This document shows positions 11,701-58,284 of a stretch of 64,000 nt of DNA, piece by piece. Source of the DNA: Antedon mediterranea (Eukaryota > Echinodermata > Crinoidea > Comatulida > Antedonidae); NCBI RefSeq assembly GCF_964355755.1, contig NC_092677.1, positions 14,840,601 through 14,904,600 on the forward strand. Direction: 5' to 3'. The position numbers and the translations under genes are program-made. Each line of letters opens with the position of its first letter. Within the stretch, counting starts at the first letter, position 1. The notes under the pieces are model-generated. The model searched no databases. It was not told where the DNA came from and saw only the letters and a program-made list of their open reading frames with translations.

Positions 11701-14700
11701 GTGACTTCTTCTGGGGATGGATTGCCTTCTGGTAGGATACATGTCAATTCTACATCTTCTCCGGCATTAACTTTGTTTTGTGATACTTTTATCTGCGGTT
11801 TGTCCAAAACTTTGAAAAAAAATACCCCTTTTTTATACTTTCATGTCAATTAGAATCTAACTTTACCATAAAGCAACACTTAATACATTATATTTTGATA
11901 TAAAATATCTTTCATAAAAGATGATAAAATTACTTACAGTTTACATCAAGCTGAACATCTTTTGTAAAGTTGTAACCATCTACACAAATATTACATTGGT
12001 ATGTACCGCTATCGTTGCGATACACATTGTTGAAAGTCAGGTCGTTCTTGTTCTGGTGTAGTGCTATGTTGCCTTCTGCAGTGGAATGTTTTGTCCACCA
12101 CCAATTTGTATTATTTAAATTATCGATAGAATCCGGTTTTATTTTACACGTCAAAGTCACACTGTCTTCACCTTCTTTAATCGTTTGATTTTGAGTTAGA
12201 ACTAAATGATAGAAAAATAAAAAATAAGTAAGAAAAATCAGTCAGGACAGTTTCTTTAATATTGATGTGACGATAATTTTAACAGAGATTCATTAACGTT
12301 CACATCGGTGATGCTTCCTTCTCTAAAGCTCTGTCTACACTACCAAAAAGTGTGATGTGCGCAAATATGGTAGTGATATGACGTCATCGTGTCCATATAT
12401 GGGAACATCACATGTTTTGTAACATACTGTTTGATAGTGTAGATAGAGCTTAAGAGAGTAAAACGGATTTTGCTCCCATTTTAAATTTTAACAACGAAAT
12501 GCATTTGAATCATTTATCCCATACAAGTGAAAGCGGCAACACAGGCTAATCATAATCATTATTTTCACACAAAACATCATTTTCTTGATTCCATTTTCGT
12601 ATTTTATGTTTCGAATCATTGTTTCAAAGTAGTGGCTATACTTAGTTAGGTAATATTATGACATTGAATATTGCATCCAAATCTGTGACCTTTTCTCGCT
12701 TAGAATGATATATAGATAATATAATTTAAAAAAACACAAAATAAATGAATATAATGGCCTAAAATAAAACCAAATCAAGGTATATAATATAGATAAATAA
12801 CTCTTTTAAAATCAGTTTTTCTTAGACCAATTTACAGTAAGTTTCATGCATCGGTATTAACATAGGTGAATATCTAACCTTCAAGTACATGAATGTCAAC
12901 AGTATTACTGTAAATCCCATCATTTCCGTCGTAGATTTTGCTCTCAGCTCTGCATTTGTACCTGCCAGAATCATTAAAACTATCAATCCGTAGTGTAGTG
13001 GATATAATGTCGTCAACTGTCCTATTTGATTGAAACTGAGATCCATCCTTAAACCAAGTATAGTTGATAGGTGGCGGATTTCCTGGAGGTTTGTGGCACT
13101 TCAGATCAATCGTGTCCCCAATTGAACAGTAACGCCGGCTTGGTATTAATTCCGGTTCTTTTAGATCTGAAATTGGTAAAATTAAAAAATCACTATGAAT
13201 GAATGTTGCTTGCACAGCATTGATTATCAAATATAAAAATATTTAAAGTTAATTTGTTGTTTGTACACAGACAAAGCTTCCGGAAGAAAAAAACATAACA
13301 AAACACGATAATTAATAAACACATTAAAGATACAAAAAGCTACACCTACGAAACAGAAAACAATATGTACATTGAATTAATAATGTGGTTGGTTGGTTTA
13401 AAGGTACACCGCAGATAAGCAACGATACAAAACATGTGAGATGACGAGATACTATACCCTTCGTTTGTCTACACTAAAAATAATTAGCTTCCAAACTGAG
13501 CAGTTAACAAACTCGAAAAAAATGTTATGTTGTCTGCGTAGTATCGGCAACTTAATATATTTTTTGTGAATTCAAGCTTTTTGAAAACATTTAAAATCAA
13601 TAGACATAATTGCCAAATCACAAAGGGTTCAAATTATAATGAAATATTCCTATTTATATAACTGTAAAGTTTTGTCTCTTTTCAGATGTTTTCTATTTTT
13701 GCTTTTATATAAATTGAAATGGTCAAAATATAGTCACAGATTCCCATGGTTGTAATCTGTAATTAAAAAAAAACAATAAAAAAAACTCTTAGTCTGGTCA
13801 TGACCATGGTTGAATTAGTTCAAAAACTGTTAAAATGAAAAACAATAAAGAGAACATAAAACAATCGTATAATGAGTTGATGTGTACTGTTACTATCATA
13901 TAACACTAATAACACGATTATAAACCGAAACTTAGTTTACGGAAACAAATATTAAATCAAGTATCCGTGTTAGTATACTTTTAAAACAATAATGTTATTT
14001 GATTGTTTCACAGATATTGACTGTTGACAATTACAATACAAAACTATCGTTAATAGATTAATAAATGATTTGATTTGATTTGAATAGGCTAATTATATTA
14101 TTCTATTCTCAACATATTTGAGGTTAAGGTTTGTAATCAAGTTTAGGCCTACTTGAATGTTATTAATTTCGGCAATTAGCCATTTGTTTGTATACATATT
14201 CATAAAGAACAAAACATACAGGAAATAGGTCAAACATTGGAAATGCAGAGCAGAGGTACTGATTACTTCCTTTGAAGTGTACTGTTACAAGATGATTAAC
14301 ATTTTCAATAACAAGGAAATTGAGAATGAATGATCTTGACAAACATTTTACAGTATACCACATTCAATAACTTTACCATAAATAAAATTATAAAAATATT
14401 TTTAAAATATTTTTTTTATTCAACTTTATTACGTACATAGGCTATTAGGCCTATTATTAGTAGGTCTAATGGTTGTGAGAAACGGTGAAGGCAAGTCAAC
14501 TTGTTTTTAGATAATTGTTACAATAGGCTTAGAGTATCCATAACATCGGCAAGGGTTTGAGGCTCACTTTTTCCATGGTTGTGGTGGTAGGACGAGTCTT
14601 TTCGGATAAGGACTATAAACCGTAGGCACAGTGTACACATCTAGTTCATGTGCACTTTAAAGAACCTAGTACATCTTTCAAGACGAGTAGGAGGTTACCC

Positions 14701-17680: not shown

Positions 17681-18419
17681 TAGTCCAGTCAATCTAATGA
17701 TATACCCACCACAAATTGCAATAGTAACAAAGCTAGTATTTTTTAATTCGATATAATTTGTAGAACGACATACTAAAAGTCACCGAAAATCCAAGCATTG
17801 GGTCAAGGGGTCAGAGGTCAATAAAGGTCATTTTAAGTCAAAATTAATATGCCCCATTAATTACATATATTTAACCATTTAAAATACATTATATACAAGT
17901 GGGATTTATGTCATCCGAAAGCTTATTAAATTTCCTATTCAGTGATATCAAACTTATAGTCATAACATTTTATTTAGAATGTCAATTTTGCGGAAAAACA
18001 CAACATAATGTGTCAATTTTGGCTAAAAATGTTGTTTTCGCTGTAAACAACAATGGTATACACACAGGGATTCCCTGGGGTGAACATTTCAGTCCAACGC
18101 GATACACATGACCAGTTCAAGATGCAGATGAGTGACATCTCCGTTTCTGTTGCTTCTGGATGATCTACATTCCATTTTTTCCAGTTGGCATTTGTGTTGC
18201 CATGGTTACAGTATTTATATTGGAATGTATAAGTATTTTTTAACCAGTAGAAATACAAAGATATTCAACAGCAGTTTGACAATGACCTCCATGTTGTATG
18301 ACGTTCGGACCATCTGGGCTGGATTGTCAACAGACCTGCAGGTGATTGAAAAAGTTTCTATGAGAAGCCTCAAAGAAAACAAGAGGTTTGACAAGAAAAT
18401 ATAGGAATGCGTACATCCA

Positions 18420-21400
18420 GACCATGAAGAAAGAGCCGGTTATAAGGGACATATTTCCTTAACCGGTAGTACTGACTGGACAAGTCAACAACAAAACAGG
18501 TATTTTTTGCTTAGTAATGAATATAACAATGAACATAAGTGTAATATCTCAAGAGAAAGTTCTGTTATAAACCAAAGTAATGAAAAAGTTAAATCAAGTA
18601 AAAGACATAGACGTGGTAAAAAGAAAAGTCGTAATGATAAGAATAATGAATGTTCTAACATTAAGATTGCATTTAATAACGTAAACAGGGTAAAATCTAA
18701 GATCTATGAGATTGATCATTTCTTAAAAGACAATAGTATCCAAATATTAGGTTTAGCTGAAACATTTCTACAAAATGATCAAACAATTGACATTAACAGC
18801 TATAAATGGATTGGCAAAAATAGAAAATCTAAAAATGGGGGTGGTATAGGTTTTCTAATATCGGAGGCGATTACAATCATGGATGATAATTATTTCGACC
18901 CGCACGATGATTATGAAAGACTATGGATAAAAGTTAAGTTAAACAATAATATTATATATATAGCAGTAGCTTACTTTCCTGTCGAAGGAACTGATGCTTG
19001 TCTCTCTGATGAATTATATAATCAACTCCTATCAGAAATTTTACAAATTGAAAATGAAAAAGCTGCACACATTTTAATTATGGGAGACTTTAACGCCAGA
19101 ATTGGTAATGCAATCCCATATGGAGACCCTGTTCTTAATACGAATGGCAAACGTTTTCTTAATTTTTGTGAAAATTCGGCACTTACAGTTCTCAACTGTA
19201 CAAAACTATGCCACGGAAAGACAACATGGATGAGGAATAATCAATCCTCAACCATTGATTATATGTTAACCTCAGACGACCTAATAGAATATGTAGAAAC
19301 ATTTATTGTGGATGAAGACCACCGCTTTCATTTAGGCAGTGATCACAATACATTAATAACAAATTTTAAACAAAGCTTTGGTCAATTAAATAAAAAGAAA
19401 AAGAATAAAACTCCACAAATATTTGGAATATTTTACCACATCAAGACTGGTCCAATTACCAAAAAGAATTAAAAGATACTTTTGAAGAATGGAACGCCAA
19501 TGAATTTGACTGCCCAAATATGCTATGGTCCTCATGGCGATCAAAATTACTACAAGCAGCAAATAAAACAATAGGATTCAAAAATAAGAAATGTAAACAC
19601 AAACGATGGTGGGACTCAAACATTGATCATTTGATCAAAGATAGAAAAGCTGCCAGTAAAGAACACCGACATTGGGTGAAGAGTAATAAAAACACAGTAC
19701 ATGGCAACGAGCTATGGCAAAATTACCAACATAAAAGGAAAGCTGTCAAACACGCAATCAACAAGAAAATAATGCAAGTTCGCATTGATAAAAGCGCACA
19801 AATCTCAGAAAACGGTGGAGTAAGCAGTAAGAATTTTTGGACAAACTTACGAGGTTGTAACCGCAAAAAAGTTGAAACTACTTCAATTAAACTGCCTAAC
19901 TCTGATAAGACAACAACAGATAAATGTAAAATAAAAGAGACAATATGTCAATATTGGAAGACATTAGGACAAAGTAACTTAGGTACTCACGATTATTCAA
20001 TTAAACAAACAAAAGAAGAAATAAACAATCTAAGAAATAAAAGTGATGAATGTAATATCGGAACTCAAAATTCCCCTCAGCTTTGCAATATATATATCTC
20101 TATGTTAGATATTAAATGGGCTTTAGGCCAATGTAAAAATCACAAAGCACCTGGCATTGATTCCATTCCTAATGAACTTCTCAAATTTGGAGGAGATAAA
20201 CTTATCCAATCTCTCTCTCAACTATTTAATCGCCTGTTAGAACTTCAAACTATCCCCGATGAATGGAACAAAGGTATAATAATCCCGGTTCACAAGAAAG
20301 GTCCAAAAAATGACTTAAACAATTATAGAGGTATAACTCTCAACTCATGTGTGTCCAAGGTATTCACGCGTATTATATCTAATAATATCTCAAAGTTTCT
20401 TGAAAGCAACAACATATTGTCTGAAATCCAAGGTGGATTCAGAAAAGACCATCGCTGTGATGATCATATTTTCACACTTAAATGTATAGCCTCAACCAGA
20501 CAGGCAGAGGGTAAAAATACATATATGGCTTTTCTTGATTTTCGAAAGGCCTTCGATACTGTATGGAGAGACAAATTGTTAACCACAGCATGGGATATTG
20601 GTATTAAAGGAAATGTATGGAAAATGTTATTTAATATATATAATAATGTTCACTGTAAAGTAAAATTTGGAGAAATCGAAACAGAATATTTCGAAATTGA
20701 AGAAGGTGTTAAACAAGGTTATGCATTATCACCTATTTTATTTTGTATATACATAAATGAATTTGCCAAACTTCTAAGGGAAAACAAAATGGGCATAGAA
20801 ATATGTAATGTTCAATTAAGTGGTCTATTCTGGGCAGATGATGTTGTTCTGCTAGCTAACGATGAAAGGGAGTTACAAGAAATGCTTGATCTAGCTACAA
20901 AATTTAGTAATGACTACAAATTAAAATTCAACTATGAGAAATCCAATGTTTTAATTACTGGAAAAAGAACAGACAAACAGAGATTATGGCCATTAAGTGA
21001 TCATTATATTTCAGAAGTTAATAGTTACAAATATTTAGGATCCCATATTACAAGATCTCTTTCCGATCACTGTCATATTGAAGAGGTTATTAAGAAGGGA
21101 TATAGAATTATAGCGTATATAAAGTCAATTATTAATGATCAAGATGATTATAACAGAGTGTTTTATGGAGATTTGTTGTGGAAGACTCTGGGTCTTCCTT
21201 CAATTAACTATGCGTGCTCTACATATGTCTGTGGTGGTATAAGTGATATTCAAAATCTTGAAAAATTACAAACCCAAATGGCAAAGGCAATACTCAAAGC
21301 ACCACGTACAACTTGTAAGGAAGCTTTGTACGGTGATCTAGGTTGGAAGTCTATTTCAACTATTCAAGACATGCAACGAATTTACTTCTTAAATCGTTTA

Positions 21401-22407
21401 GTAAAGATGGATATGAGTCGATGGCCCAAATTGGCTTTTAGTGCAATGCTATTCATTGGTCATACGTCTACATTTAAGTGGAAATGGTACAACCATATGC
21501 AAAATACTCTAGACTCGTGTGGAATGAGCCACAGGTTTAAATTAACGACAGATACTAACAATCAATGGGTAATCATTTCAAAAAGTATAATTAAAAGTAT
21601 TGATGGTATCCAAATTTTTGATCAAGCCAGAAAGAAAACTTCATTGATGAATTATGTCACACTTAAATCCACACCATATATAGAACCGTATCTTTTAGAT
21701 AAATTGGATTTCTTAGGGGCAAGTCTTAAATTTAAGGCAAGATCAAATACACTTGCACTTAACCTTAAGAAATCTATATGGGAAGAAGATAATGATGGTA
21801 CATGTCCTATATGTAAAAATGATAAAGAAGACATTATACATTTTATGTTCAAATGCAAATATTTTGATGATCTACGCTCAACGGAATATTGTAAACTTGA
21901 GCATAACCTATATAATAGTAATCTATATACATTCTGGTTGTACTTTCTACTAGGTAACCCAGTATTAAAACTAAAACTAACCCTAGGAAGTGACACTAGC
22001 CTTCCTACTGGGACGCAACCAGTAATTGTTAATAAAGTAAATGAAATATTTGACATGTTTTGCAAAAGCTATATAAAACAAGCATGGGCTTCACGTACCA
22101 AAATGTTAAAGATTTAAATACCAGTCTGGTACTACTAATGTATAACTGTAAATAGAGTAACGAAATAAAGAATTTTTTTAGTTAAGTATAGTATACTTAA
22201 GTTTTTTTTGTGAATGTGAATGTATTTATATATATATTATTTTGTATCATGTATTAATAATTATTGTTATCACTAAACTGTAGTAGTCTGGTACTACTAA
22301 TGTATAACTATAAATACAGTAATGATTAACAGGCTATACCTTACATTAAATATATTTACTTACCAACGTTTTCTTTTGGCTTTTTTAGTTAAGTATAGTA
22401 GTATAGT

Positions 22408-26349: not shown

Positions 26350-26538
26350 ATTAATTTGATTATCTACTAAAGCAATATATAAAGCTTGCTTCTTTTCTGT
26401 TTTTTTCTAAAAACGTTCTATGCATTACAATTTAGTAATTGTACATTAATACTGATTTAATTCAATCTTTAGTCAAACGTTCATGATTTTTTCTTCTTAT
26501 TCTTATTCCAATATTTGCATTAACATGACCTGGTGCCT

Positions 26539-29500
26539 CTACTTTATGTTGCTATATATGACAAGTTTGGTTCCCTGAAAAAGAAAATATATTTCAAAGA
26601 TTTGAATTTACAGCATTCTCCTATAGGTAATTGTTCAAATTGTAAAATCTTATTCTATTATATAGTTAAAATACTAATTAATAACTTACATCAGGCTTGT
26701 CTACATTCGTCTTATCTGGTCGTCGTTTCTAAACAAAATTTAAAAAAGGGAAAATCCAAAGTTAAATATTTTAGTCCGTGTGCCGGAAATTCTATTACTA
26801 GTTTTACATTTTCATATATTAACTAGTAACTGTTTGTGTTTTATATAGAAATTTTGAACAGTAATGTAGCAGTACTTATTATTGTTATTATTATTATTAT
26901 TATTATTATTGTTCAAAATTGTATCGTATTTGTTTTTGTTTTCTCATCTTACATTTCCCAACAAAACCTGTTTCATGTTTTTGTAGATAACAAATCCAAT
27001 ACCCACTCCAACGGCACCAACCAACATGCCACGAATGCACACACCGATGACGATGACCGTACCTACGCTATTACCACTTTCTGCATTACGATAATTATCT
27101 GAAAGTTCTAAAGTTGGAAATGGATACGAATATAAAAGGCCTATATATATTGACACATTAAATAGAATTGTACTAAAATAAGGAAGCATACATTCAATCT
27201 GGAGTTATAATTTGATGTTTGTTTTTTTAGTTTTATTTTGGATTTACGTGATTCGTCCTCAGGACTTAACACATGCTTCCCACAAATAATGCTCTTGGAT
27301 CTATAAAAATAATCTACAACTATCACCTTAAAAACATGTCAATTTGTATCATCAGGTCCATCAAATTATTTAAAACAATATCTTATGGCAATGCATAATG
27401 ACAATTGTCTTAACCTAAAAAGAGTTTATTTAATACTTTACCGTTAATGCTAACAGAAGAACTGACTGGTCCTGCACCAGTTTCTGTGGAAGCCATCACT
27501 TGAACATGATACTCGACTCCTGGTTGCAGACCAGTTATTAAGACAGAGATTTTTTCACCACCAACTGTTATGTTTCTATTATACTTGGGATTTTCGGCAA
27601 TGCACATCACAAGATATTCGGTTATTAATCCAGGAACCTCCCAGGATTGGATCTGTTGCCAGCCTACTAAAATCGTAGTGGCGTTCTGATGCATAGCGTA
27701 CACATCTTGTGGAGCAATTGCTGGAACTAAATACAGAGACCAACGAAATATTGTAAAGCTTACTTAATTTACAAATTTTAGCATGTAGTGTTGGAGAGGA
27801 TCTGCTTGATGTTGAGGTACAGTTTGAGTACAGGTAAGAGTAACACTCAATACAATTTTAGTATAAATAAGAGTAAACTCAACACAATTTGAGTAAAAGT
27901 AAGAGTAAAACTCCTCACAATTTGAATAGAGGTGAGATACAACTGAACATAACACAGTTTTAATTACTTTCATTACAAATTATCAATTGTAGTTTCTTAA
28001 TTTGTATATAAAAATTTTACCTCCAGCTTTAGTTTTAACTTGTTCTTCGTTGCTTGCCTCACCCAGCGTGTTACCATGAAATGGTATCAGAGAAATTGAG
28101 TATTCTGTGTAAGGTTTCAAATTTTTAAGTGTGATGTTTTCCTGTAATCTGGTTGCTGTTTCTATCATGTATTTTTCCTCTTCATCAGTGGAATAATAAC
28201 GAATATGAGCACCATCGACGTAATGAAGGTTTTTGCCAATCTGTGTGAATAGAAATAACAATAGATAATTTAAAATTACAATTTTATTTCAGATAATTTC
28301 TGCAGACTTTTTTTCTTGGCAATTGTACTTTTTTCTCGCTCTCTCTTTTGTAGGAGCAATTGTACTTAACATTGTTTTAAATATGTCGGTGTTGATACAT
28401 ATTGTCACTCCTGTACAGCTTCCATTGTCATAGTAAAGCAAATAAAAATAATAAACTGCAACGCTGCTAAATTGAATATTATTGATTAACCACATGCAGT
28501 TATATAAAAACTATATTAGTAACTAAAATTGACTTCATTGTGGGATTATGAGATTTCATTGTAATGAACAGCTCAACGCAAATCTTGTTGATTTCTGTTG
28601 AATAATTTCAATAACACCGACCTTCCATTCAACTTGGACAGTGGTGGGGCTCGCTGGTGTCAAACTTTTAATCTGTATGTTACAATCGTCAAGCAGGTCT
28701 TTTATGTTGCTACTTGGTATTTGTTCAGTTTCTAGATCTTGACCTGAAACAGAAAAAAATGGTTAAACATTGCCAAAAATATCCATACACCATGTAACAA
28801 CGATTTTTAAAGGCTCAGATTATAAAGAGTTAATACCATCTTAAGTGGCATTTATAGAATTGAAAAAGTTCCATAGCACTGAAGTCAATCGGAATAAAAA
28901 GACATGATTTTCCTTCCAAATATATAGGCTTGGTACTTTATTGTTAACAGAATAAAGAATATAAATTATTTGATAATTTAGTTTGATTCTCAATCACAAT
29001 ACCTTAAGAATAATATTTCTGTTTAAAATGTTTTAACACAAGCTTACCTTGCTCCAATGTACTATTGGTAACTTCATCACTTTCTAACCCATGAACTGAG
29101 TTGTATACAGGCTGTAAAGTAATAGTGTATGATGTTCCTGGTTCAAGTCCTGTCACAAGCTTGATAGATTTCTCAGCAGTTACTTGCATTACGTCACCTT
29201 CGCCGTTGGATTTTTTGTATTTGACATTGTACGTACAGCTAGGCTGAGGACAGTTGGACTGTTAAAAACATGACAAAACAATTTAATAATAATCTTATAT
29301 TTTTGCATTTAAAAAAGTATTTTATTCTATTTATTTTCACCCTTATAATAATTTATTTTCATATCTTAGAAATAATGTACTAACCTCCCACTCCACTTGT
29401 AAAGCTGTTGGACTAAGAACCTTTACACTAGTAATAATGACACGTCGATTAGAATGATCAAATCCATGAATTGGATTGGTTTCTGTAAAAAAAATTAAAA

Positions 29501-32500
29501 TAAAATTTAATTTCTTTTTCAAAAGATATAATGACAATTGGTCTTGATTTCAATCAACTGCAATTCCCTAATCATTGACAAATCTATTATTTTCTCCTCT
29601 CACCTCCAGTTGTGAATGAATTTGAAACCAAGCTTGGTTGTCCAACTCCGACAGAGTTAATGGCACGAACGTAGAATACATACGTGGTTGTTGAACGGAG
29701 GTTCTGTAGTATGTAAGTGGTTCCTCGGATGTTATTGACTAAAATCTCCCAAGCTGTAAAACAAAATGAGAAACATACTTTTTAATACTGTATAACCCAA
29801 CCATTCAATTTTTTATTGTTTTAAACAAATGTTGCCCTATTATTACAACATTAATACAGCAATATCGTAGTATATTATGTTATAGGGGCTGGACACGATA
29901 AGTATTTTACTTTTTTTTAGATCTTTCTATGTTCATGTCATTTACCATTATTGTTATAAATTTAGAAGAAAAAGAAGAAAAGAAAATAAATTTAAATTTA
30001 ATTAATTGTAATATGTGGAGTGGATATTTTCGACTTACTTGCATTAATTTCATGATTGTAGGCTTCTATTCTGTATGAAAGAGTTGACCTTGATGTTGAC
30101 TCAGGAGGAGACCACGACAAGATAACATTACCATTTGTAGTATTCTGTGCTGTAGGGATTCCTGGGATCCCAGGAAACTCACTATCTGCTGGCCTACGGC
30201 GCTGGGTACCATCACGACCTACAATGGAAAAAGTAACTGATCATACAAAGTAACAACATCCGTACAACAACTGTTCAAAGGTTTAGTAGTGAAATGTTTT
30301 TTTTTTTTTTTTTTTTTTTTTTCTTTATTCTGATATAAAAATCAAATAGGATAAATACACAAAAAAGTACCGAGACGGCAAACTTATTTCCATTGTGGTC
30401 CTAAACAAATATAACAGAATAAACAAGGAAAACCACAATTACTTAAACATAATACACAAACAAATAGCAAATTAAATTTCTCTTAATCTAAGAATTTCAC
30501 AAAAATAACCTTTTGATCTCTGTTTAAATAATTGTAATGAAGAGGAGCTTTGAACAAAATAGGGGAGTGAATTCCATAACTGAATGCTTGTTATTAAGAA
30601 AGTTGACCTGTTGTGAGTTCCTATGACTGGAATTTGGATCGAAATGCGGTCTCTAGCAAATCTTGTATTGTGATTGTGACGTTGTCTCGTCAGGGTAATT
30701 GTATCCAGGTAAGATGGAGCACTTTTATTAATTATTTTATACATAATACATAGTTTCCTCTCTTGTACTCTTAGGTCAACTGGCAACCAATTTAAGTTTA
30801 CAAACTCATGTATACCTATATGAGATCGTGGTCCTAGGTTCGAAATGCACCTAATAATTTTGTTTTGAGACGTCTGTAGCCTATTTTTAATATATTTATT
30901 TGTACACTAGTACCATACACAGCACCCATAGTCATAATGACATTGTGTCAGAGAAGATGCAATTAATTTAAGAGCATATTTAGTAATATATTTTTTATTT
31001 CTATTAAGAAATTTAAGTATACAATGAATTTTATTGATTACTTTCATACCTGTAGCTGTACCAGTAAGGTTCTGGTCAAGATCAATTCCAAGGTATGTGA
31101 TTGAAGATTTAGCAGTTATGTTTTTATTATTACAGGTAATTTTCATTTCTGACTGTTTTCTACACATGGTTTTTGTACCAAATAAAATTGACTCCGTCTT
31201 ACCAAAATGAAGGGATAATCTATTGTCAGAAAGCCACAGATTCAACGCTTGCAATTCATTACTTAGTCTGTTTTCAATATACTCTCGGTCTTTATTTGTG
31301 ACCAAAAGGGCTGCATCGTCTGCATATAGCAACAACTCACAACCAACGGCCGATTCCATGTCGTTGACATATAGCAAAAATAGTAAGGGACCCAGAATAG
31401 ATCCCTGGGGTACTCCACATTTGACGTCAAGAAATGTTGATTTAGTACCTTTTATGTCAACAACCTGGGATCTACCGTGGAGGTATGATTGCATCCATGA
31501 CAGAGATAGACTAGTAAAAAACCCATGGCCTTTAATTTATACAATAATATGTCGTGGTCTACTGTGTCGAACGCCTTTTGAAGGTCAATTATTATCATAC
31601 CAGTCATTTTCCCTTTATCCCATCCATTTCTAACAGAATCCGATAGATGTATTAGACATGTTTCTGTAGAAAATGAAGGTCTAAAACCTGATTGATAGGT
31701 ATAAAGAAGTGATTGGTCGTTTAAGTAACTCATTAATTGATTATACATAATACGTTCTACAATTTTAGACACTGCAGATAGAATAGAAACGGGTCTATAG
31801 TTTCCAGCATATAATCGATCTTTCTTTTTGTAAATAGGCACTACCTTAGCAGATTTCCAATCAGAAGGGATATAACCGGTTGAAATGGATATATTTATAA
31901 TATGGCTCAGTGGATGTAAGATAGCCAGAGCCCCATCTTTGAAAAATCTGGCAGGTAAGGAATCTAAACCCGCACCTTTCTTACTATTTAAGTTGTTTAT
32001 TATCGTTAGTACGGTTTGTTCATTTACTTCTTTAAAGGCAAATACACCTTTTTTATCTGCATAGTAATGTTTAACGTGGTTTTCATTGTAAGTATTAGAT
32101 GAAGGAGGGAGTTTGTTGACTAAATTTTCAGGAGTATTAATGAAAAAGGAATTTAAATAGTCAGCAATCGAGCTTTTGTCATAAATTATTTTATCTTCAC
32201 ATTTTAGAGCAATGTTTTCAGATTTATTTTCTGTTCCGGTACCTAAACTTGTTAAAACATTCCATAATTTGTTGGGGTTATTTTTATTTTCATTTAGTTT
32301 GTCCGAAAAATAAGATGACTTAGCTCTTTTTATTTTATATTTTACAGAATTTCTTAAATTTTTAAAGACAGTAAATATGTGCTCATTACGAGTTCTCTTA
32401 AATTTAGCTAAGCATTTATCACGTTTAATGATCAGATCTCTACTTGGTTGATGGCATTCATCATTTTTAGTTTGAACCAGTCCCATGCAGTGCAGACATT

Positions 32501-33144
32501 TGTGCAATTTGTGATATCGGACCAATCTAATTCATTTAATTTAGAAGTAAGTAGTTCTGATGAGTATGATTTCATAGATCGTATTTTAATCGTCTTATGC
32601 CTCTTAATCGGGATTTTAACTATCTTTCTGGTGCAGTAAGTTATAAAATGATCACTGACACCGTAAGGGATAACTCCGTATTGGAAAATGTTAAGAGGTT
32701 CGGATGAGAAAATAAGATCTATGATGGTAGAGGTAGTGCAAGTAATACGTGTTGGGTCCTTAATAAGTTGGGTGAGATTAAACATATTACAAAATTGGGA
32801 CACCCATTTATTTTTACTTAAATTATTAGATGATACATCTACATTAAAGTCACCTAAAATAATAACTTCTTGACCTTGTAAAATATCTCCACAGATTGTC
32901 TCAAGTAAGGTAAAAAACGATCGCTGCTTTTCAGGTCGGTAACAGGTTCCGATTAGAATAGGTTTGGTTTTAGGTAATAGTATATTTATCCATAAAGATT
33001 CAATATCATCGTTTTGGAGATCATCTCTCACGTTGTAGGTAAGATCATTTCGTATATAGAGGCATACGCCTCCTCCAACACTATTCGTACATCTATCTTT
33101 TCTTTCAATTGAATAATTTTCGATACTTATTTCACTGTTATTTA

Positions 33145-33181
<37 letters not shown>

Positions 33182-36100
33182 AATAGACCGAATTTCATCG
33201 ATTTTTGGAAGAAGGCTTCTGGTGTTCAGGTGTAAGCAATGGAGACCTTTGCATCTGAAGATTTCAGATAACAATGTATCGGGGTCATCACACGAATCGT
33301 TTGTAAGAGTTGATGTATCGATATCGCGGTGGTCATTTGAAGTATCGTTAACATCAGCGTTGCTAAACGGCATGTTACTGTAGTGTCTGTACTTAGAAGT
33401 GTCTAATGGAAGTCTAAAGTCTTTTTTCAAGGCTCATACGATGGTAGAATTCTGATTTCTCAATGTGGAATGTTTGATCAGGATTTAGGACATTTAAAAG
33501 AAAGAAATATTCGATTTACTTACCAGTTACAGAGAGCTCTGCAGAGCATCTAGTCTCTCCACGTTCACTGGTGGCTACACAGGTATAGCGGCCTGCATCA
33601 CCATATTGTAAGTCAGTTATTTGCAAAGACCCTGGAAGGGCATTTATCCTAAAAATGTTGAAGGTGTCATAATATTATTATAATTAAATATGAAAATTTT
33701 GATAACAATGAGATTTATTAAATGAAATGCAAGAATACTGTATAATGCACGGATTAAATAATGATATTATTATATAAAATAAAAATGATGTGATTATAGA
33801 AATACCTGATCACTTTTGAGATTGGTTCTCCATCTTTTAACCATCTAACTTCTGGCTGTGGAGTGCCTTCCATTTCACATCTGAGCCAAGCGATTGTATC
33901 GACAAACAATGTTTGATTATATGGACAAACTTTGATGATAGGTGGAAGTTCAACTGAGTCTTAAAAATAAGAGAAAAATATAAATAAAATCAAATGTTTT
34001 TATGCACGGCCTTACTATCACAGTAAATCAAGCAAAGGCGCACCATTGTACATTAAAACAAATATTGTATTGCTATTATTTCTATGATGTGAGCATGGCG
34101 GACCAAGCTGCGCCTCGGGACCACTCAAGATATAATTTTGCAAAGTCAACGACCTTACATAATAATGTTTAATCATGCTATGGCGTACTAAGTTTAAAAC
34201 AACGTGTCTTAAGAGTTTATTAGGATGCGAAAGTTAAAAATCCTCAGAAATAAGCGAGATTATCATCGTGTTATGAATGTGGAAAATGACAAGTTTTGGT
34301 TTTAAGGGGATTTCCTTAATCATTGACAAACCTACTTATCTATAGATACTCACACTACTGATCAATAGAACTGGTATTGTAAATTGCCAGCCCTTTTAAT
34401 CCAAGTTTTGACCTTGTGGCAATGACTTAAAGGGAAGGTGCACAACAATGGTAGCTTATATCATTCAAGACAACTTGTTCAATAATCTCAGTGATTTTGT
34501 CCACTTGTTTAAAATAAATTACAGAACTTTTGAGTAACAAATGAACATTATGAGATGACACTGAAACTCATTTAAATTCATTTTATGAGTAGCTGTTATT
34601 CTTTAATTTATATTTGATCTTATGACACAATCAATGCCTATTGATTGTCACACAATTCCAATCATGCCCTGTAATCCATTTCAGGGAACTCACAGTCATA
34701 CAAACATCAATAGACGGACAATAAGTATGAGTAAACATTCTATTCATATACAGTATCATTAAAAAAAATATTAATTTTGACCAACCTTGATATATTAATT
34801 TTAAATGATTTATACACAATGTCATGCATGGATGGAGAACATATTGATATAGATTATTAGTAGTAGTGTACTTATTTGAAGTAATATGAACAGACTGATC
34901 GTAATAAAAAGTAAACATTTCATCTCAAATGTGATGATGTATTGTTAAATATGGTATTTTTTAATGTTGAGGTTGAAAGCCCCTACTGTAAAGAAATTAA
35001 GCGTACAGTGGTCAATTATTCATGAACATCCCAATCTACATTAATTCACATACAGTAATTATTAAGGAACCCAGCAAAGTGTCTCCTTAATAGGAGTTAA
35101 CCAAAATTGGTTTTAAAATATATATTGCTCCTATTTTGTTTCAAAGTGTGCCTTGAATAGGGTTGTCGCAAATGAGGAGTTCTACTCTAACTCTATGCCA
35201 TAATATTAATTATTATATTATATATATACACATACAATAAACCATGAATCAAAGATCTAGTGTTGTGATGTAATAAAATATGGATTTTGCATTTGAGCAA
35301 GTAGGTTCCGAACGCCTGTGGTTCCTCGTAAAACTATCAACCCAATGGCAGTTCATTAGTAACGTGCTCCGTTACGAGAATTTGATTGAAACGCCCTTAA
35401 TGTTCACAGATCTAATGCTCCACTTTTCCACTTTCGTGAACTAATAGTTCAGGTATTGATTTCTACATTACTGTTGCTTTTGAAATTAAAGGAATAGAAA
35501 AGGTTATTTTAGAAGTTCTACCATGAATTTGTTTGAACTACATCAGCTAAAAGAGGAATATCTGAATTGAAATTTAGATATTTGAAGAGGGTGCGAAAAA
35601 CTTATATTGGAAAAAATAAATGTTTAACTTCTTCTGGATAGGTGTGTTAATATATCTGCGATTTAATGGATGCATGCCACTTTGATAGCAGTATTGACAC
35701 GAACAAAATGATTTGTGGTTTTGCATGTTCAATAAATATGACATAATGTAAAAATTATCAAGCGAAATCAATGAATAAAGAATGATAAGATATAAATGAA
35801 GCATACATCATTTCAGTAAAAACTTCTCAACAGAAATAGCATAAATGTAATGTAGTTCTTTTAAAATACCAATTTGTATTATTTCTATCAATAGTATACT
35901 ATTAGTTATTATTTATTCCACAAAACTAATATCATAATGAAACTGTTTTATCGTAAATGTTCACACTGTATTACATACGATCTTCTTTATATCTATCTAT
36001 ACTGTTCATGCCTTGTGGCCTCCTAAAGGTTTCAGTAAACTTGTCCAAAAGTTTGATGTTTATAGTGGATAATCTATTAGCAGCAACATTAATTGTCAAA

Positions 36101-39100
36101 GTGTCGTTATATTAACCCTATTAACAAATTATAGTAAACTATCTACTGAAAATAAAATTTAAAATAGCTTACCAACTACTCGTAGATTTGCCTGTGCTGA
36201 AATGGCTTGTCTACCATCCACAGTGCAAAGATATAGTCCTTCGTCGCCTTTTGTCACATCTCGGATTTGGAGACTACCATCCTCCAACACGCTCCGTCTT
36301 CCATTTTCAACACCAGGATAAAGTGGCTAGTATAATATAAAAATCATGAAAATGAGTAAGGTCAGATTTTAAAGCTCTTTGTGGGGAAACACAGAGATCT
36401 GACCGATAATACTGATATCTGTTTATTTCTTTTGATACTTACAGCTTGGTTTGCTTTGCGCCAGTAAATTGAAGGCTGTGTGGCACCTGGAATAGGATCT
36501 AATTGGCAGCAAAATGTGACTGTGTCTCCGATATGTGCCATCTTGCTGACTGGTGAACAACTAAAGATTGATCCTTGTTCTGGAAGACCTGAAAGAAAAT
36601 CAAACACAAAATGAAGTTTAATCAAAGGAATAGGAGAGGATAGAGGTAGCTACTAAACATTGTTTAACTATTTTCAATTGTAATGAATAAGAAGAATAAG
36701 AATACCATTGATTTTTTATTTGTCATCTGAAATTGATACATTATGCATACTGAAGCCTATTCTTCAACAATATACACTATACATACATTTTGTCATCTTA
36801 GTAGCCACAATGAAAATGTAAGTCTACTTTTTTGAGATTCTTGATAATCACCTTAGAGAACCATCAAAGTTAAACTTTCTTTAACTATTTTATTAAAACA
36901 ATTTCAATTTGAAAATACATACTAAGCACTGACAGAACACCTGGGTCACTTTTTCTCCTATTCGCAAAGTTTTCAGCGATACATCTATAGCTTCCAGCAT
37001 CTTCTTCACGTACCTTTAATAAAGACATACATTTATTATTCTAAACTTTATATACACTTCATGAAGAAAGGGAAAATGAGGTATGTTGAATATATAGATG
37101 AGTGTCAGCCAAGAAAAACAAACAAATGAATCAGAGGCATAGTCTACAAACAGGAAGAGTTGAATATTGTAAAGGCTTCTTTAGATGGCAGCTAGGTAAG
37201 AAATATGCTTAGAAAGAAGTTGTTTGATAGAAAACAGAAGAAAAGGCTAATCATTTTAATATGTTCTTTACATGTCTGATCATAAGATTGCCATCCTGAA
37301 CTATCTCTACTCTTTCATCACTAACAATGGAGTCTCCGTTTTTCTCCCACTTGATATCTGGTACAGGAAACGCCCGTGGTGGTGTACATTCCAGAACATA
37401 GGTTCCACCAGCAATCGCTTCTACATCCTGTGGATTCTTCTTGAACTCATTTTTTAAATCTGTAGGAAAGATAAAATATAGAAATAACTAAAGAGCGAAT
37501 GAGTTCTGAATTTTATTTATTTCTAGCCCTGCTATCCAATTGTTTTTCAACAACGTAATAATATAAAATGCCTTTATATCATAAAGAAATAGCTTGCGGG
37601 TTCGAACATGAGTTGTAGTGAAACCGGAATAAGTATCACTTTCTTGTGTTACTAAAATAAACTCACATGCTACTTCTAATGTGGCATTGTTACTTCTTGC
37701 AGACCCAAGGTAGTTTGTGGCCTCACAGTAATACACCCCTGTATTCTGGTTATTTGTCACCTTCAGAAAAAATAGATCACCTTCATCTACATTGGTACCT
37801 TGATAAGGCTCCCCATCCTTGTACCACTGTGAAGAGAAGAGAAATAAAAATACATGATTATTTTATTCGGCATAAACAAATGCTTTTACAAAACATAATT
37901 ATTGTACGGTTCCGTGAATAACAAACACAAAACATTCCGTTTGGACTTTATGAATACAATTGTAACAGTATTTTATTGTGTATTATTATTCTGTATCTTT
38001 TATTTTTTGAGTTCTATTGTTACAAGATAGTAAAAAGAGTCAAATACAATGCTTAAAGAATGTTTAAAGATGTATTGTCCCCCAAAAACATGAAAAAATA
38101 GATTAATTAAATTTAAAAGACTAGTCCAGATAGTCATATTTCCACTCTAATAAGATGCGAAGCGAAAAAACATGTGTTTTAGGGTAATTTTGGGGTGCTG
38201 AATTTAAATCTGCTGTTTACCCGGCTCAATTTTTAGGTCTTCACCCTTAAAATGTAAAAAACAAAATGGCCGCCATTTCAGACTTATTGGCTGGCAGCCA
38301 ATTTGAATATTTCTTGCTTCAAATTGCAGTTTTTCAGGTAGAACAAAATTAGTTTCCGATCCTATTTTTTTTATCAAAATAGGTCACTATTATGTGACAA
38401 TAAAAGACATATTTAAAAAAACGTTTGTAAGAATTCAGGGAGACAATACATAATTAACGTATAGTGTTACATAGAAATAAATAAACAATGACATATTGTC
38501 AGGCTTTCAGTTTCAGTTTCTGTCCCCTTTGCACGGGGAATTTATTATTCACATATATAGGCCCAGAATAACGTACATAATTTATTAGTACATCATTATT
38601 TGTAATATAACCTAGTGATGTCTTCTTCATCCAAAAGCAAAATATACATATTTATGTAATATGTTTGATAATGAAACGTAATTTAATAATAGACGGGTAT
38701 GTAAAATTCAATAAAAATTTGATGAAATGAATTGTTTTAACTAATAATAATAATGACCAAATTAAAAGAGTAGGCCTAATACAATTCACCGTTACTCAAT
38801 CAGAGTTAGTAGGCCTATTACATATTAGGCCTAATTCGTAAAAAGTTGACGCCTTAAAAGTGGTTGCATGGAATGAGATTACTTACACGTATAGTGGCTA
38901 CTGGTCGAGCATCAGCCCTACACCTGAATGATGCTGGGTTGTTCCTCACCACAACCAATGCGGATGGATGCTCCGTAATTTTAGGTGGAAAATTGTCTTT
39001 CTTACCAACAACTGAAAAAATAAAAGAAAGCAGACTTAATAAAAACTCGTATCCACAGCTAACAACAGGCTTAATTGATAGCGGATTAGCAAAACATTAT

Positions 39101-40663
39101 CTATATATAAATTTACGTAAGGGCAAAATTCGGTAAATCGCGCCTTACTTCTAGAATTTTTACTCGATGGTATATAAAGTTGGTTCGTACTTTCGGTACT
39201 GATTTTAACCACCTGATGTAACCCTGTTTACTAATTAAATTAAGTTAGATAATTCGTTATTGACGATTAAAACGAATTTAGGTTCAACGATTTGCCCCAA
39301 ATAGGGGTGTTTTCCGATCGTGGTATACACTGTCTGATGGATGTCCATCTTTAAAAATACCCGCCACAAAAATGCGAGGAGGCTTCGCATTTTCCTATCT
39401 CCTCCTACGATAATTGTTTTTAATAGCTGAAAACCGGTTGAACAGCTAGAGTACACCATCATAATGTTGAAGACAGGCCGATTTTCTTTAAAAAATACTA
39501 TTTTGATAGATTTAATATACGATTATACAAATGTATTGATTTGCGATGAATGGAACATTCCAATCTCTGTGTCGTTCCACAAGTGTCTATTCCCTCAGGC
39601 GTCGTAAAGGAAAGTACTGTATACTCATAACAGAAATTCGATCCATTTTTTTTTTCAATCTGTGCTGCAGAGGTTGGATATAATTTTTTTTTAAACGGAT
39701 AATGAGCTAGTGCTAGCGTTTTCAGTCGCCGTATATTATGTACAAATCTTTATTATTGCATTTAAACCACCCACATCATCACCCTTCTCTCACTAGCATG
39801 AGTAGCGTTGTAAAGCCATAGTAGAGCCTGATAGGCCTATACGGTGCATCATATGCCCTAAACGCAAAACAACTTTGGTGGGTAGGGTAGGAACCAACTT
39901 AAGTATGACTTGGCTCTAAGAAACAATTGAAAACCATTAGGCCTACTAATTAAGTTGAGTTAGATAATTTAATATTTATTGACGATTAAATCGAATTTAT
40001 GATTTTCCCCGAATAGAGGTGGTTTTCACAAATTGTTTTACATTATATAAACATACACGTCGTAGTGATGTATCGTTACCTGTACTGCTATTTCAATCTA
40101 CTAGGACGGTGATACTGATAGTTTCAACAAAGTATTATATCGCAATGTTTTACTGTGTTTAGTGGTATATTATTTGTAAAACATGAAAACAATTAATATT
40201 TTGTTACTAAATGGATAAAGCATATATTTAAAAATTGTTCCTCTTTGCACCCATCCTCTTCCCCATCCTTCAACCCTAATGTTACATACAAAACACAAAG
40301 TTAAGTTTGTTTAAATTTGACTTTAATAAACAATTGGTCTCATTTTGTGACAAGTTTCTCTTTCGGAAGTAATTCCCAGTGTGCTAATGTTAGTTGAGTA
40401 CATAAATCAGTGTCTATTTATTCGTTCCTGTATTGTACGTACATTTGAAATCGTCAGTTTTTTAACGCTGAAATTATTATGTATTCGAGAACCATCTGTG
40501 GGCACGACCTAGATGGTACGCGAGCGAAGCTCAATTTTCTTTTTCTTTACGAAGACATATAATGTTAACGGTAACAATTGTTCTAAGAATACTTACACTG
40601 CGGGAGCGTCGAGTGTAAACAAATAAGAATAGTAAACACGACTGTTACGTATAACACACCCAT
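26539..40663 (-). CDS. Roundabout-like receptor with short tail: 4 Ig, 4 FN3, TM, ITIM-like end
   Basis: There are 19 minus-strand exons: 40597-40663, 38887-39011, 37667-37826, 37272-37459, 36923-37013, 36443-36588, 36173-36326, 33806-33959, 33524-33648, 30039-30218, 29604-29753, 29385-29482, 29048-29258, 28622-28743, 28021-28240, 27442-27726, 26953-27107, 26690-26728 and 26539-26574. All phases close: 901 residues and a stop. The signal peptide is MGVLYVTVVFTILICLHSTL. Ig1 opens PPKITEHPSALVVV, the ROBO Ig1 hallmark (usually PPRIVEHPSDL), and includes WYKDGEPY and YYCEATNYLGSARSNNA. Ig2 has NPQDVEAIAGGTYVLECTPP. Two more Ig domains resemble ROBO Ig4 and Ig5; an Ig3 equivalent is missing. Four FN3 domains follow instead of three. 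The TM (VGTVIVIGVCIRGMLVGAVG...) has a buried Arg. The tail is about 35 residues with no ROBO CC motifs and ends KLVIYSNIK. ROBO receptors bind Slit; whether this one does is unknown. Confidence 0.85.
26873..26911. repeat. (TTA/ATT)n microsatellite
   Basis: A run of ATT units with a few interruptions, in the intron between the TM and tail exons of the ROBO-like gene. Confidence 0.85.
30297..33450 (-). mobile_element. LINE (CR1/L2-like), decayed, in a ROBO-like intron
   Basis: Minus-strand element with endonuclease (HLNTRSLLPKIDEIRS, IGTCYRP, LGDFNVD, YGVSDHF) and reverse transcriptase (GLDSLPARFFKD, NYRPVSILSAVSKIVERI, DLQKAFDTVDHDIL, GVPQGSILGPLLF, LLLYADDAALL), ending in a T tract (poly-A on the minus strand) at about 30297-30322. 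Frames change near 32450-32520 and 31450-31490, and an in-frame TAG lies at 30907-30909 before the C-terminal block. In the endonuclease a poly-A run (33151-33178) coding poly-Lys replaces the usual ETW catalytic block. It lies in the intron between 30218 and 33524. Confidence 0.85.
33960..36172. other. Large ROBO-like intron, no gene seen
   Basis: AT-rich intron with no recognisable exon or RNA gene. The part at about 34145-34310 has a relative at 44860-45020 in the degenerate tandem copy. Confidence 0.5.
38069..38455. mobile_element. Probable MITE predating the duplication
   Basis: GATGTATTGTCCCCC near 38069 and its approximate inverse CAGGGAGACAATACAT near 38440 bound a non-coding stretch in a ROBO-like intron. 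The degenerate copy B holds the eroded counterpart (about 46400-46715), so the insertion is older than the block duplication. Confidence 0.45.
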
Positions 40664-44150: not shown

Positions 44151-44420
44151 ATTTATGAAAACAATAATAGAGTTAAAGCCATTTTATTTTTATTTTACAT
44201 CCCGAGTTTAGTTTTAAAAGATTCATAATATTATTATTTGTATGTTTTAACTATCTACTAAAGCAGTTTATAAAACTTGCTTCTTGACTGGTTTTTTTTT
44301 CTAAAAACATTCTACGCATTACAATTAATTAATTAATTTTATATTAATACTGATTTCATTCATTCTTGTAGTCAAACTTTCATGCTTTTTCCTTCTGGTT
44401 CTTATTCCAATACTTAACAT

Positions 44421-47400
44421 AACCTGGTGCCTCTTCGTTCCCTGAGAAAAAAAAATATTTCAATGATTTGAATTTACATTCTCAAGGCACCAAAGAATGT
44501 GTGCAATTGCTCACTCCAACTTGAGTAGGCCATTTCAGTATATGTAATTGTTCAAGTTGTAAAATGATATTCTGCCAATGATTTATCTAGTCAAAATACT
44601 AATTAATAACTTACCTCAGGATTGTCTACATTCGTCTTATCTGGTCATCGTTTCTAAACAAAATTTTAAAAAGGGAAAATCCAAAGATAAATATTTTAGT
44701 GCGTGTGCAGGAAATTCTATTGTTATTTTTACATTATCATATAGTAACAAGTTACTGTTAAAACATTTGTGTGAATTGGTAAAGATTGGGTAATTGTGTT
44801 TTATATAGACATTTTGAACAGTAATGTAGAAGTACTTTACTGTAGTACTCAACTGTAGTAAGTCAACGACTTTACATAATAATGTTTAATCATGCTATGG
44901 CGCGCTAATTTTAAAGCAGAATGTCTTGAGTTTAGCTGGATGCGAAAGCTAAAAATCCTCAGAAATAAGAGAGATTATCACCGTGTTATGAATGTAGGAA
45001 AACTACAGATTTTAGTTTCAGAATCGCTATATTAACCTTGTGATATGTGAACGACCAATAGAAAACTAGCTGATAAAATTAAATTAAAAATAGCTTACCA
45101 ACTACTCGTAGATTTGCCTGTTTTTTTTTTTTTTTTTTTTTTTTTTCCAACACCAGGATAAAGTGGCTAGTATTTTTTAAATTATTAATAATCAACTAAG
45201 AGAAGTATTTTATTAAAACAATTTAAATTTTAAAAAGTGATTGCAAAATACTTACTAAGCACTGACAGAACACCTGGGTCACTTCTTCTCCTATTCGCAA
45301 TGTTTTCAGCGATACATTATCTATAGCTTCCAGCATCTTCTTCACGTACCTTTAATAAAGACATACATTTATTATTTTAAACTTTATATACACTTCATGA
45401 AAAAAGGGAACATGAGGTATGTTGAATATGGATGAGTGTCAGCCAAGAAAAACAAGCAAATGAATCAGAGGCATAGTCTACAAACAGGAACAGTTGAATA
45501 TTGTAAAGGCTTCTTTAGATGGCATAGTATGCTTGGAAAGAGGTTGTTTGATGGAAAACAGAAGAAAATGCTAATTATTTTAATATGTACTTTACCTGTC
45601 TGATCATAAGATTGCCATCCTGCACTATCTCTACCCTTTCATCACTAACAATGGAGTCTCCGTTTTTCTCCCATGTGATTTCTGGTACAGGAAACACCCG
45701 TGGTGGTGTACATTCCAGAACATAGGTTCCACCAGCAATGCCTTCTACATCTTGTGGATTATTCTTGAACTCATTTTTTAAATCTGTAGGAAAGATAGAA
45801 AATAACGAAAGAAAGAATGAGTTCTGAATTTGATTTATTTCTAGCCCTGGTATCCAATTTTTGTTCAACAACGTAATAATATAAAATGCCTTTATATCAT
45901 AAAGAAATAGTTTGCGGGTTTGAGCATGAGTTGTAGTGAATAATAATAATTATCACTTTCTTGTACATACTTATGTAATAAAATGTTGCTTTATAAACAA
46001 AAACAAACTCACATGCTACTTCTAATGTTGCCTCACAGTAATACCAGGGAGTAATACACACCTGTATTCTGGTTATTTGTCACCTTCAAAAAAAATAGGT
46101 CACCATCACCTACATTGGTACCTTGGTAAGGTTCTCCATCCTTGTACCACTGTAAAGAGAAGAGAAATAAAAATACATGATTATTGTATTCGGCATAAAT
46201 AAATATGCTTTTACAAAACATAATTATTGTACAAACGCAAAACATTCCGTTTGGACTTTATGGATACAATTGGAACAGTATTTTATTGTGTATTATTATT
46301 TCTGTATCTTTTTCAAAGTGTGAAACTTTGTTTGCTTTTTTGTAAGTTTGTTTGTTTGTTGTGTTCTATTGTTACAAAGTGAAGATTCAAATACAATGTT
46401 AAAAGATGTATTTATTTTCCACAAAAAAAACATGAAAAATGAAGATAATTATTAAATCAGACTTTCAAAAGGTAAATTTTAATAAAGTTAATAAATGAAT
46501 AATAGTAATGTTTTCACACACTTATAAATTACAAAGTGGTTAAATTTAACCAATAACCCATTTGACTATTTCTTGGTTCAAATTGCAGTTTTTCAAGTAA
46601 GACAAAAAAATTAGTTTTCGATCCAATTTTTGATCAAAATAGATAACTATTATGTGACAATAAAATGGCATATTAAACAAAAATGTTTGTAAGAATCCAG
46701 TGAGACAATACATCATTAACGTATAGTGTTCCATAGAAATAAATAAACAATGACATTTTCAGGTTTTCAGTTTCAGTCCCCTTTGCACGGGGAATTTATT
46801 CACATATATAGCCTATAGGCTCAGAATAACGTACATGATTTATTAGTGCATCATTATTTGTGTATCTATAAATAGTGATGTCTTCTTCTTCCCAAAGCAA
46901 AATATACATATTTATATAATACGTTTGATAAATTAATATTTGACATGAGTAAACACAATTTAATAATAAACGGGTATGTAAAACTCACTCAATCAGTGTT
47001 AGCATGACATATTAGGCCTAATTCGTAAAAAGTAGGCGCCTTAAAAGTGGTTGCATGGAATGAGATTACTAACACGTATAGTGGCTACTGGTCGAGCATC
47101 AGCCCTACACCTGAATGATGCTGGGTTGTCCCTCACCACAACCAATGCTTGTGGATGCTCCGTAATTTTAGGTGGAAAATTGTCAACAACTGAAAAATAA
47201 GAAAGCAGACTTCCACACTTTTAATTGTGGATGCTTAGTAATTTGTGGTGCAATTAGGCCTACAATATAATTCGTATTTGTATCAACAGCTAACATTAAT
47301 AAGACATGCTTAATTGTTAGCGGATTAGCAAAACATTCATTTTTACCATTTTAATTTTCTTTACGAAGACATATAATGTTAACGGTAACAATTGTTCTAA

Positions 47401-47477
47401 GAGTACTTACACTGCGGGAGCGTCGAGTGTAAACAAATAAGAATAGTAAACACGACTGTTACGTATAACACACCCAT
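44421..47477 (-). pseudogene. Truncated tandem copy of the ROBO-like gene
   Basis: Surviving exons: signal exon 47411-47477 (intact), Ig1a about 47088-47190 (open, donor GTTAGT), Ig1b about 46020-46150 (stop after VYYSLVLL, loss of the NYLGSARS block), Ig2a 45598-45785 (open), Ig2b about 45262-45352 (in-frame TAA insertion after SYR), and a remnant of the second half of the third Ig domain (45100-45175) whose middle is replaced by poly-T. All FN3 and TM exons are gone. Remnants of the two tail exons at 44605-44650 (TGA inside) and about 44425-44450 (end deleted, ITIM-like motif lost) remain. It cannot make the full receptor; a short Ig1-only product is conceivable. Confidence 0.82.
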
Positions 47478-58280: not shown

Positions 58281-58284
58281 ACTA

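Follow-up and report, generated by a model that had tools for sequence, protein, structure and literature searches.

Is a gene that carries the ectodomain of the guidance receptor ROBO on a short tail of immune-receptor appearance a genuine gene, and, if it is, where did its tail come from and what might the product do? The question is raised by gene A of the crinoid Antedon mediterranea, which lies within a stretch of 64,000 nucleotides (C8:14840601-14904600, C8 being contig NC_092677.1; this whole stretch is called the window, and coordinates without a contig label are positions in it). Our genome searches covered the 354-Mb genome in 18 contigs; a COX1 search found no match. In this report, we found that gene A is very likely a genuine fusion, in which the ectodomain exons of a ROBO gene are followed by the 3' exons of a tandemly arrayed family of immunoglobulin (Ig) receptors. 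We put at roughly 0.5 the probability that this fusion gene makes a membrane-anchored, signalling-poor ROBO ectodomain serving as a decoy or dominant-negative co-receptor.

A preliminary description of the window, made from its letters alone, had joined 19 exons in phase. When we rebuilt these on the minus strand, all had AG/GT borders, and they gave one open frame of 901 amino acids, without a stop, that ends at 26539. The ROBO derivation claimed for the ectodomain is borne out by the Protein Data Bank (PDB), where the top phmmer match of the protein is Roundabout homolog 2 (6iaa, which we take to be the human protein; E 1.2e-134) and where the Ig1-Ig2 block finds Roundabout homologs 2 and 1 as its best matches (E 6.1e-68 and 1.1e-63). 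Pfam recognizes four Ig and four fibronectin type III (FN3) stretches, as against the usual five and three. The tail that follows the transmembrane (TM) segment had been put at about 35 residues ending in KLVIYSNIK; it measures 34 residues, KNMKQVLLGN-KRRPDKTNVDKPD-GTKLVIYSNIK, with that same ending. It has none of the conserved cytoplasmic (CC) motifs of ROBO proteins, as had been said, and in this it is unlike the long tails of the two other ROBO genes described below. The arginine reported inside the TM segment is likewise present (codon 27033-27031).

The ectodomain has a close relative next door. A genome search with the gene A protein found gene B on the plus strand at C8:14754097-14803175 (exon 2 to the last coding exon), inverted with respect to gene A such that their 3' ends face each other, 64 kb apart. 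Exons 2-16 have equal lengths and the same splice sites in 15 of 15 cases, and over them the two genes are identical at 763 of 802 amino acids (95%) and at 2325 of 2406 nucleotides. Past exon 16, gene B has a TM exon of its own and runs on, through ten exons joined in frame, for some 590 residues of tail, among them the stretches QPYASTTLV and LLPPPPEHPPP, which resemble CC1 and CC2, and PEYAVV. The last of these fits the YAx-hydrophobic pattern given for CC0 (PMC8045725). A third ROBO, gene C, lies 1.25 Mb off at C8:16.129-16.179 Mb and has PEYAVV and EPYASTSLI in its tail; its exons, read singly, suggest a more canonical ROBO than A or B, with five Ig domains and four of FN3 type. The search for a further full-tailed ROBO that the preliminary description had proposed thus yields two, both with CC-like motifs, and the genome has at least two such genes. 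That gene A might be the sole ROBO, with a long tail missed past 26539, is ruled out by these two genes together with the foreign source of its own 3' exons.

That source lies on the same chromosome, 13-14 Mb away. A whole-genome DNA search with 701 nt of the 3' end of gene A found, besides gene A itself and a decayed tandem copy of it (A'), two matches near C8:1.0 Mb (E 2.3e-7 and 5.2e-6), and a genome search with the tail protein found, besides itself, three weak matches (E 0.027 to 2.2), all at C8:0.70-1.03 Mb. All five fall within C8:0.70-1.04 Mb, inside an array of Ig-receptor genes that end in three exons: a TM exon, an exon of 42-45 bp and a last exon such as TYMDYVGESSGPNQTYQDLQHKVEESAYVNVKAGNKKKKAKI. 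Searches with the exons of one member gave 54 last-exon and 61 TM-exon matches at E up to 1, numbers that are not tallies of intact genes (14 of the 54 have E <0.001 and eight contain stops); 53 and 59 of them, respectively, lie in C8:0.62-1.63 Mb, and the remaining one and two on another contig (C7:15.70 Mb). Both a TYQDL-type and a YVNV-type motif occur in 38 of the 40 family loci that were read (L032 and L046 are the exceptions). Upstream exons, scanned in one member, encode a V-set Ig domain, a C2-type Ig domain and, as the third, an Ig-like block that Pfam does not recognize; no sushi domain was seen in that member. A V-set query matches loci near 1.0 Mb (L022-L024) and none of the four upstream loci L066-L069 (0.62-0.66 Mb), three of which have C2-type matches and all four third-domain matches, and the donor family as read from these matches is not V-set throughout. 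The array (loci L016-L024 and L026-L069, the C7 place included) looks like a sizeable, uncharacterised tandem family of immune-type receptors.

The relation of this family to the end of gene A was examined with DNA profiles from 14 close family copies, searched over the window and the fetched loci of genes B and C (392 kb). The TM-exon profile matched exon 17 of gene A (nhmmer, E 3.6e-12) and had no match in the given loci of genes B and C. The last-exon profile matched gene A at E 1.2e-7, followed by A' (0.013) and one place in the gene C locus (0.079); with a profile of the whole family, searched over the window only, the gene A match was just E 0.001. The family's exon 18 profile found no match in these sequences, and the assignment of exon 18 therefore rests on its place, phase and borders. 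With that exon placed by position only, gene A follows the family in order and phase: TM exon, linker exon, last exon. The family TM exon stops 15 nt before the donor modelled in gene A, which reads CAG-GTTTTG there, and the frame is kept either way. A protein profile of the family is weak on its own (9.4 bits for the TM exon of gene B and 21.5 for that of gene A, the best of 1000 shuffles of the latter reaching 20.0). We rejected an origin of exon 17 by divergence from a ROBO TM exon, since the DNA profile is clear for the family. Intron 16 of gene A, compared with four family loci, shows no similarity above shuffles in three and 34 against 28 in the fourth. The family's own Ig ectodomain is not found in gene A, where, among the family's three Ig-type domains, just the C2 domain has a weak match (E 0.009). 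Homology to the 3' exons of another gene family, for exon 18 by position only, supports the last exons of gene A as real exons.

These observations suggest how the gene may have arisen. The ectodomain exons 2-16 of the full-tailed gene B would have been duplicated, and the copy, immediately beyond the donor of exon 16, would have acquired the three terminal exons of one of the genes in the tandem family, namely its TM exon, its short linker and its last exon. The frame fits across the join because both sides are in phase 1. One could object that the link between ROBO copy and family tail exists in the assembly and not in the animal, given that similar copies (A, A' and B) lie within about 134 kb. 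We regard such an artefact as highly improbable: A' also has ROBO exons together with the same tail and 3' region, the two parts meet across an intron of 334 bp whose phases match, and the tail blocks of A and A' differ at 15% of ungapped sites, which excludes a simple assembly duplicate. Since A' has the ROBO-tail fusion too, the fusion is older than the split of A and A'.

The two halves of gene A appear to differ in their history. Exon 1 of A' (47477-47411) is nearly identical to that of gene A (99% of 129 nt), and gene B has no match to gene A exon 1 DNA, its own first exon not being found by that query. A further copy of exon 1 (85%) lies upstream of the window at C8:14912715-14912800, and the surrounding 10 kb that we fetched gave no match to ROBO protein. 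In the ectodomain, by contrast with the tail, gene A is nearer to B than to A': A and B agree at 50 sites, A and A' at 25, and B and A' at 18, and nine of the 25 sites common to A and A' fall in the exon 2 block, mostly at one flank. The identity of A and B is also uneven, with 94.9% in exon 2, 96.6-98.0% around introns 5-7 and 91.3% from intron 15 to exon 16. Because the tail is common to A and A' only, yet the ectodomain of A is nearer to that of B, we propose later gene conversion between A and B as the simplest account of the conflict.

The tail of gene A is altered relative to the family, and its alterations bear on whether it could signal. In gene A's copy of the family last exon, the 5' half is gone, a new acceptor stands directly before the remainder, and this remainder is read in another frame. 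Read in the family frame, it gives NQTCHI-stop, with the tyrosine of YQDL replaced by cysteine and that of YVNV by histidine; the TYQDL...YVNV tail is absent from gene A. Both family tyrosine motifs have been lost through truncation, substitution and frame change. The hexamer VIYSNI does fit the consensus [SIVL]xYxx[IVL] of the immunoreceptor tyrosine-based inhibitory motif (ITIM), as was noted when the gene was first described. The caution given at the same time, that a lone hexamer can be chance, was apt: the pattern occurs in 5.1% of 100,000 shuffles of this tail. Because the hexamer is read in the shifted frame of a truncated exon in which the family tyrosines have become cysteine and histidine, it does not descend from the family's tyrosine motifs, and its likeness to an inhibitory signal is probably accidental. 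Nor is it shared with related genes, given that the family reads the other frame and that the VIYSNI stretch is deleted in A'. The TM arginine is no more widespread, its position being occupied in the 40 family copies read by valine (38), phenylalanine (1) or leucine (1) and in none by arginine. Judged from these comparisons, then, the hexamer and the arginine are both private to gene A, although anchor and tail taken together derive from a family that resembles immune receptors. The description of the tail as of immune-receptor type holds for its origin, in that the TM and tail exons match an Ig-receptor family with tyrosine tails, and is not supported by the two marks on which it had been based.

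A short tail, a hexamer of this kind and a basic TM residue are features of the paired immune receptors CEACAM, LILR and SIRP, and gene A shares all three with them. Unlike in those receptors, its motif comes from a shifted frame, and no intact partner gene was identified. It is nonetheless conceivable that gene A is an active immune-type receptor that couples a ROBO ligand to immunoreceptor signalling, with VIYSNI acting as an ITIM or with the TM arginine pairing with an adaptor that carries an activation motif (ITAM-like). The presence of both features, and the origin of anchor and tail in a family with conserved tyrosine tails, agree with such a role. Set against this, the hexamer stands in a frame that the family does not use, shuffled tails reach it at the rate given above, the family tyrosines are lost, and A' is without it, and we consider the proposal improbable. 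The notion that VIYSNI itself is a working ITIM is more doubtful still. Slightly better, though unlikely, is the chance that a product still made lets a ROBO ligand drive signalling of the immune-cell type, through adaptor pairing at the arginine or a re-evolved VIYSNI tyrosine.

Is the ectodomain maintained? Introns and exons of A and B were compared over 11 of the 12 introns 4-15; intron 9, which holds a retroelement in gene A (3305 bp against 223 bp in gene B), was left out. The introns have 54 indels that are not multiples of three in 4513 aligned nt, whereas the exons have no length change in 2406 nt. Had gene A been neutral, 14.4 such exon indels would be expected on its branch alone, and none is observed. 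The coding differences are 40 synonymous and 41 nonsynonymous, a ratio of nonsynonymous to synonymous change per site (pN/pS) of 0.30 (P 0.016 against an omega of 0.5, roughly what a dead copy paired with a fully constrained one would give). For exon 16 by itself, which ranks with the most diverged exons, the ratio is 0.19 (P 0.019). On these grounds gene A probably makes a functional protein.

The opposing view makes gene A a pseudogene, in which a duplicated piece of ROBO adjoins what is left of the 3' end of a dead Ig receptor, and whose open frame is owed to conversion by gene B and to chance. Decay has overtaken A', the nearest copy of gene A and a pseudogene; gene A itself has lost the 5' half of its last exon along with the two tyrosine motifs of the family, and arginine has taken the place of the TM valine; its tail looks degenerate; and the uneven identity of A and B, with A nearer to B than to A', suggests conversion. 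Several further points weigh against a maintained protein. The introns are richer in simple sequence, by which the indel contrast is overstated; Ig1 has a dN of 0.018 and a dS of 0.016; the first FN3 domain has five nonsynonymous changes to one synonymous; the absence of stops (P 0.066) and the number of amino-acid changes (P 0.0625) exclude a neutral gene A weakly and not decisively; and conversion with gene B could preserve the ectodomain of gene A without selection on A. A pseudogene must, however, be squared with the lack of any frameshift in 2406 exon nt where the introns of the same tract have 54, with the pN/pS values overall and in exon 16, and with splice sites that are all intact. 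We therefore think a pseudogene somewhat unlikely.

A maintained gene A would produce an ectodomain of the gene B type held on a membrane. Little signalling of its own would be expected, because it has neither a ROBO tail nor the family tyrosines. We infer that such a protein, if made, would bind the ligand of B, or B itself, and so damp B. A decoy or damping role rather than signalling is possible, though somewhat less likely than not. The preliminary description had called gene A a recognition or decoy receptor outside canonical guidance; the derivation from ROBO and the missing CC tail are borne out, and its ITIM basis is not supported. Experiments in the fly indicate what a ROBO ectodomain can do in this form. 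Robo2 without its cytoplasmic domain is described as still promoting crossing and binding Robo1, and truncated Robo1 or Robo2 as weak dominant negatives (PMC4505356), while Robo3 so truncated is reported to retain part of its function (PMC11179118). Since these truncated fly proteins act, a ROBO ectodomain without the ROBO tail, such as that of gene A, can act as well.

The identity of the ligand also bears on the decoy reading, and here too a point must be set against it. Ig1 of gene A is without 9 + 4 = 13 residues that are present in ROBO1/2 (exon 3, 37826-37667). In gene B, exon 3 is equally short and the same residues are missing, and gene C retains most of this stretch. A heparin-binding bE-bF loop and surfaces near the Slit2 D2 site have been reported in Ig1 (PMC5807052). 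By count, the 13 residues fall in a stretch that includes this loop and overlaps those surfaces. Because Ig1 is short in this Slit/heparin region, the ligand common to A and B may not be Slit.

How does gene A compare with known systems? Its ectodomain is homologous to those of ROBO1-3, fly Robo and SAX-3, and its neighbour gene B has a long tail with CC-like motifs; gene A differs from these receptors in its four Ig and four FN3 domains, where the ROBO ectodomain is described as five Ig and three FN3 (PMC7580999), in the shorter Ig1 and in the absent CC tail. With fly Robo2 and Robo3 lacking the cytodomain it has in common a membrane-held ROBO ectodomain without the ROBO signalling tail, the difference being that the fly truncations were engineered (PMC4505356, PMC11179118), whereas gene A occurs naturally as a gene in its own right, and its tail is foreign. 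In amphioxus, FrLRR is described as leucine-rich repeats of the Slit2-N type joined to a folate-receptor gene, with exon shuffling proposed and an immune role (PMC10199209). There, as in gene A, a guidance module stands on an unrelated receptor; FrLRR concerns the ligand side, has a predicted glycosylphosphatidylinositol anchor and a function known from experiment, whereas gene A concerns the receptor side and is known from sequence. The tail-donor family, for its part, resembles the FcoR of Botryllus and the Alr of Hydractinia, which are described as multigene Ig receptors with ITIM/ITAM-type tails (PMC12065747; gene number of Alr in PMC11999971). This likeness, by description, extends to multiple Ig genes and tyrosine-motif tails, and the donor family differs in its near-fixed TYQDL...YVNV tail and in the lack of a sushi domain in the one member scanned. 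In a limited check of titles and abstracts, we found no natural ROBO ectodomain on a tyrosine-motif tail of immune type. The features of the locus are collected in Table 1.

Table 1. Gene A, its parts and its decayed copy, in window coordinates.
Feature	Position	Strand	Evidence or remark
Gene A, ROBO-ectodomain fusion gene, 19 exons, 901 aa	26539..40663	(-)	In-phase exon joining, no stop; domain scan; PDB match
Exon 1, signal peptide MGVLYVTVVFTILICLHSTLPQ	40597..40663	(-)	22/22 residues identical in A'
Exons 2-16, encoding the ROBO ectodomain, copied from gene B (plus strand, C8:14754097-14794479)	27442..39011	(-)	Exon lengths, identity
End of A-B similarity, few bases into intron 16, region of the fusion point	27435..27441	(-)	blastn similarity stops at 27435
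Exon 17, TM exon from Ig-receptor family	26953..27107	(-)	nhmmer E 3.6e-12, profile of 14 family copies
Exon 18, KRRPDKTNVDKPD	26690..26728	(-)	Agrees with the 42-45 bp family exon in place, phase and splice sites; positional match only
Exon 19 as translated, GTKLVIYSNIK-stop	26539..26574	(-)	VIYSNI at 26562-26545; frame differs from family exon
DNA homologous to family last exon and start of 3' untranslated region, exon 5' half missing	26471..26572	(-)	nhmmer E 1.2e-7; genome DNA search E 2.3e-7, 5.2e-6
Non-LTR (long terminal repeat) retroelement in intron 9 of gene A, absent from gene B	30300..33433 (approximate limits)	(-)	RVT_1
A', tandem copy in decay, with exons 1-5 followed by remnants of intron 7, exons 18/19 and 3' region	44157..47477	(-)	Stops in exons 3, 5, 18

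The surroundings of gene A contain other elements. At 18405-22117 the plus strand holds another reverse-transcriptase element, whose frame is 902 aa long. Ig exons belonging to at least one further Ig gene lie on the minus strand at 3165-15476, together with a 346-aa acidic low-complexity frame, and these exons have a weak likeness (E 0.004) to the V domain of the distant array. Mitochondrial ribosomal protein S30 (PDCD9) is represented by its C-terminus at 56794-57132, just before a long array of 98-bp and 188-bp tandem repeats at 57262-64000. Elsewhere on the chromosome, about 20 of 150 scored I-set matches, in both orientations, mark another Ig gene cluster at C8:4.7-5.8 Mb.

Guidance receptors and immune Ig receptors form distinct classes, each with tails of its own. 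A gene that unites them in nature, as gene A very likely does, would show one route by which recognition modules can pass from one class to the other. Further, if its protein is made, gene A would be an experiment of nature on how a ROBO ectodomain acts when ROBO signalling is absent.

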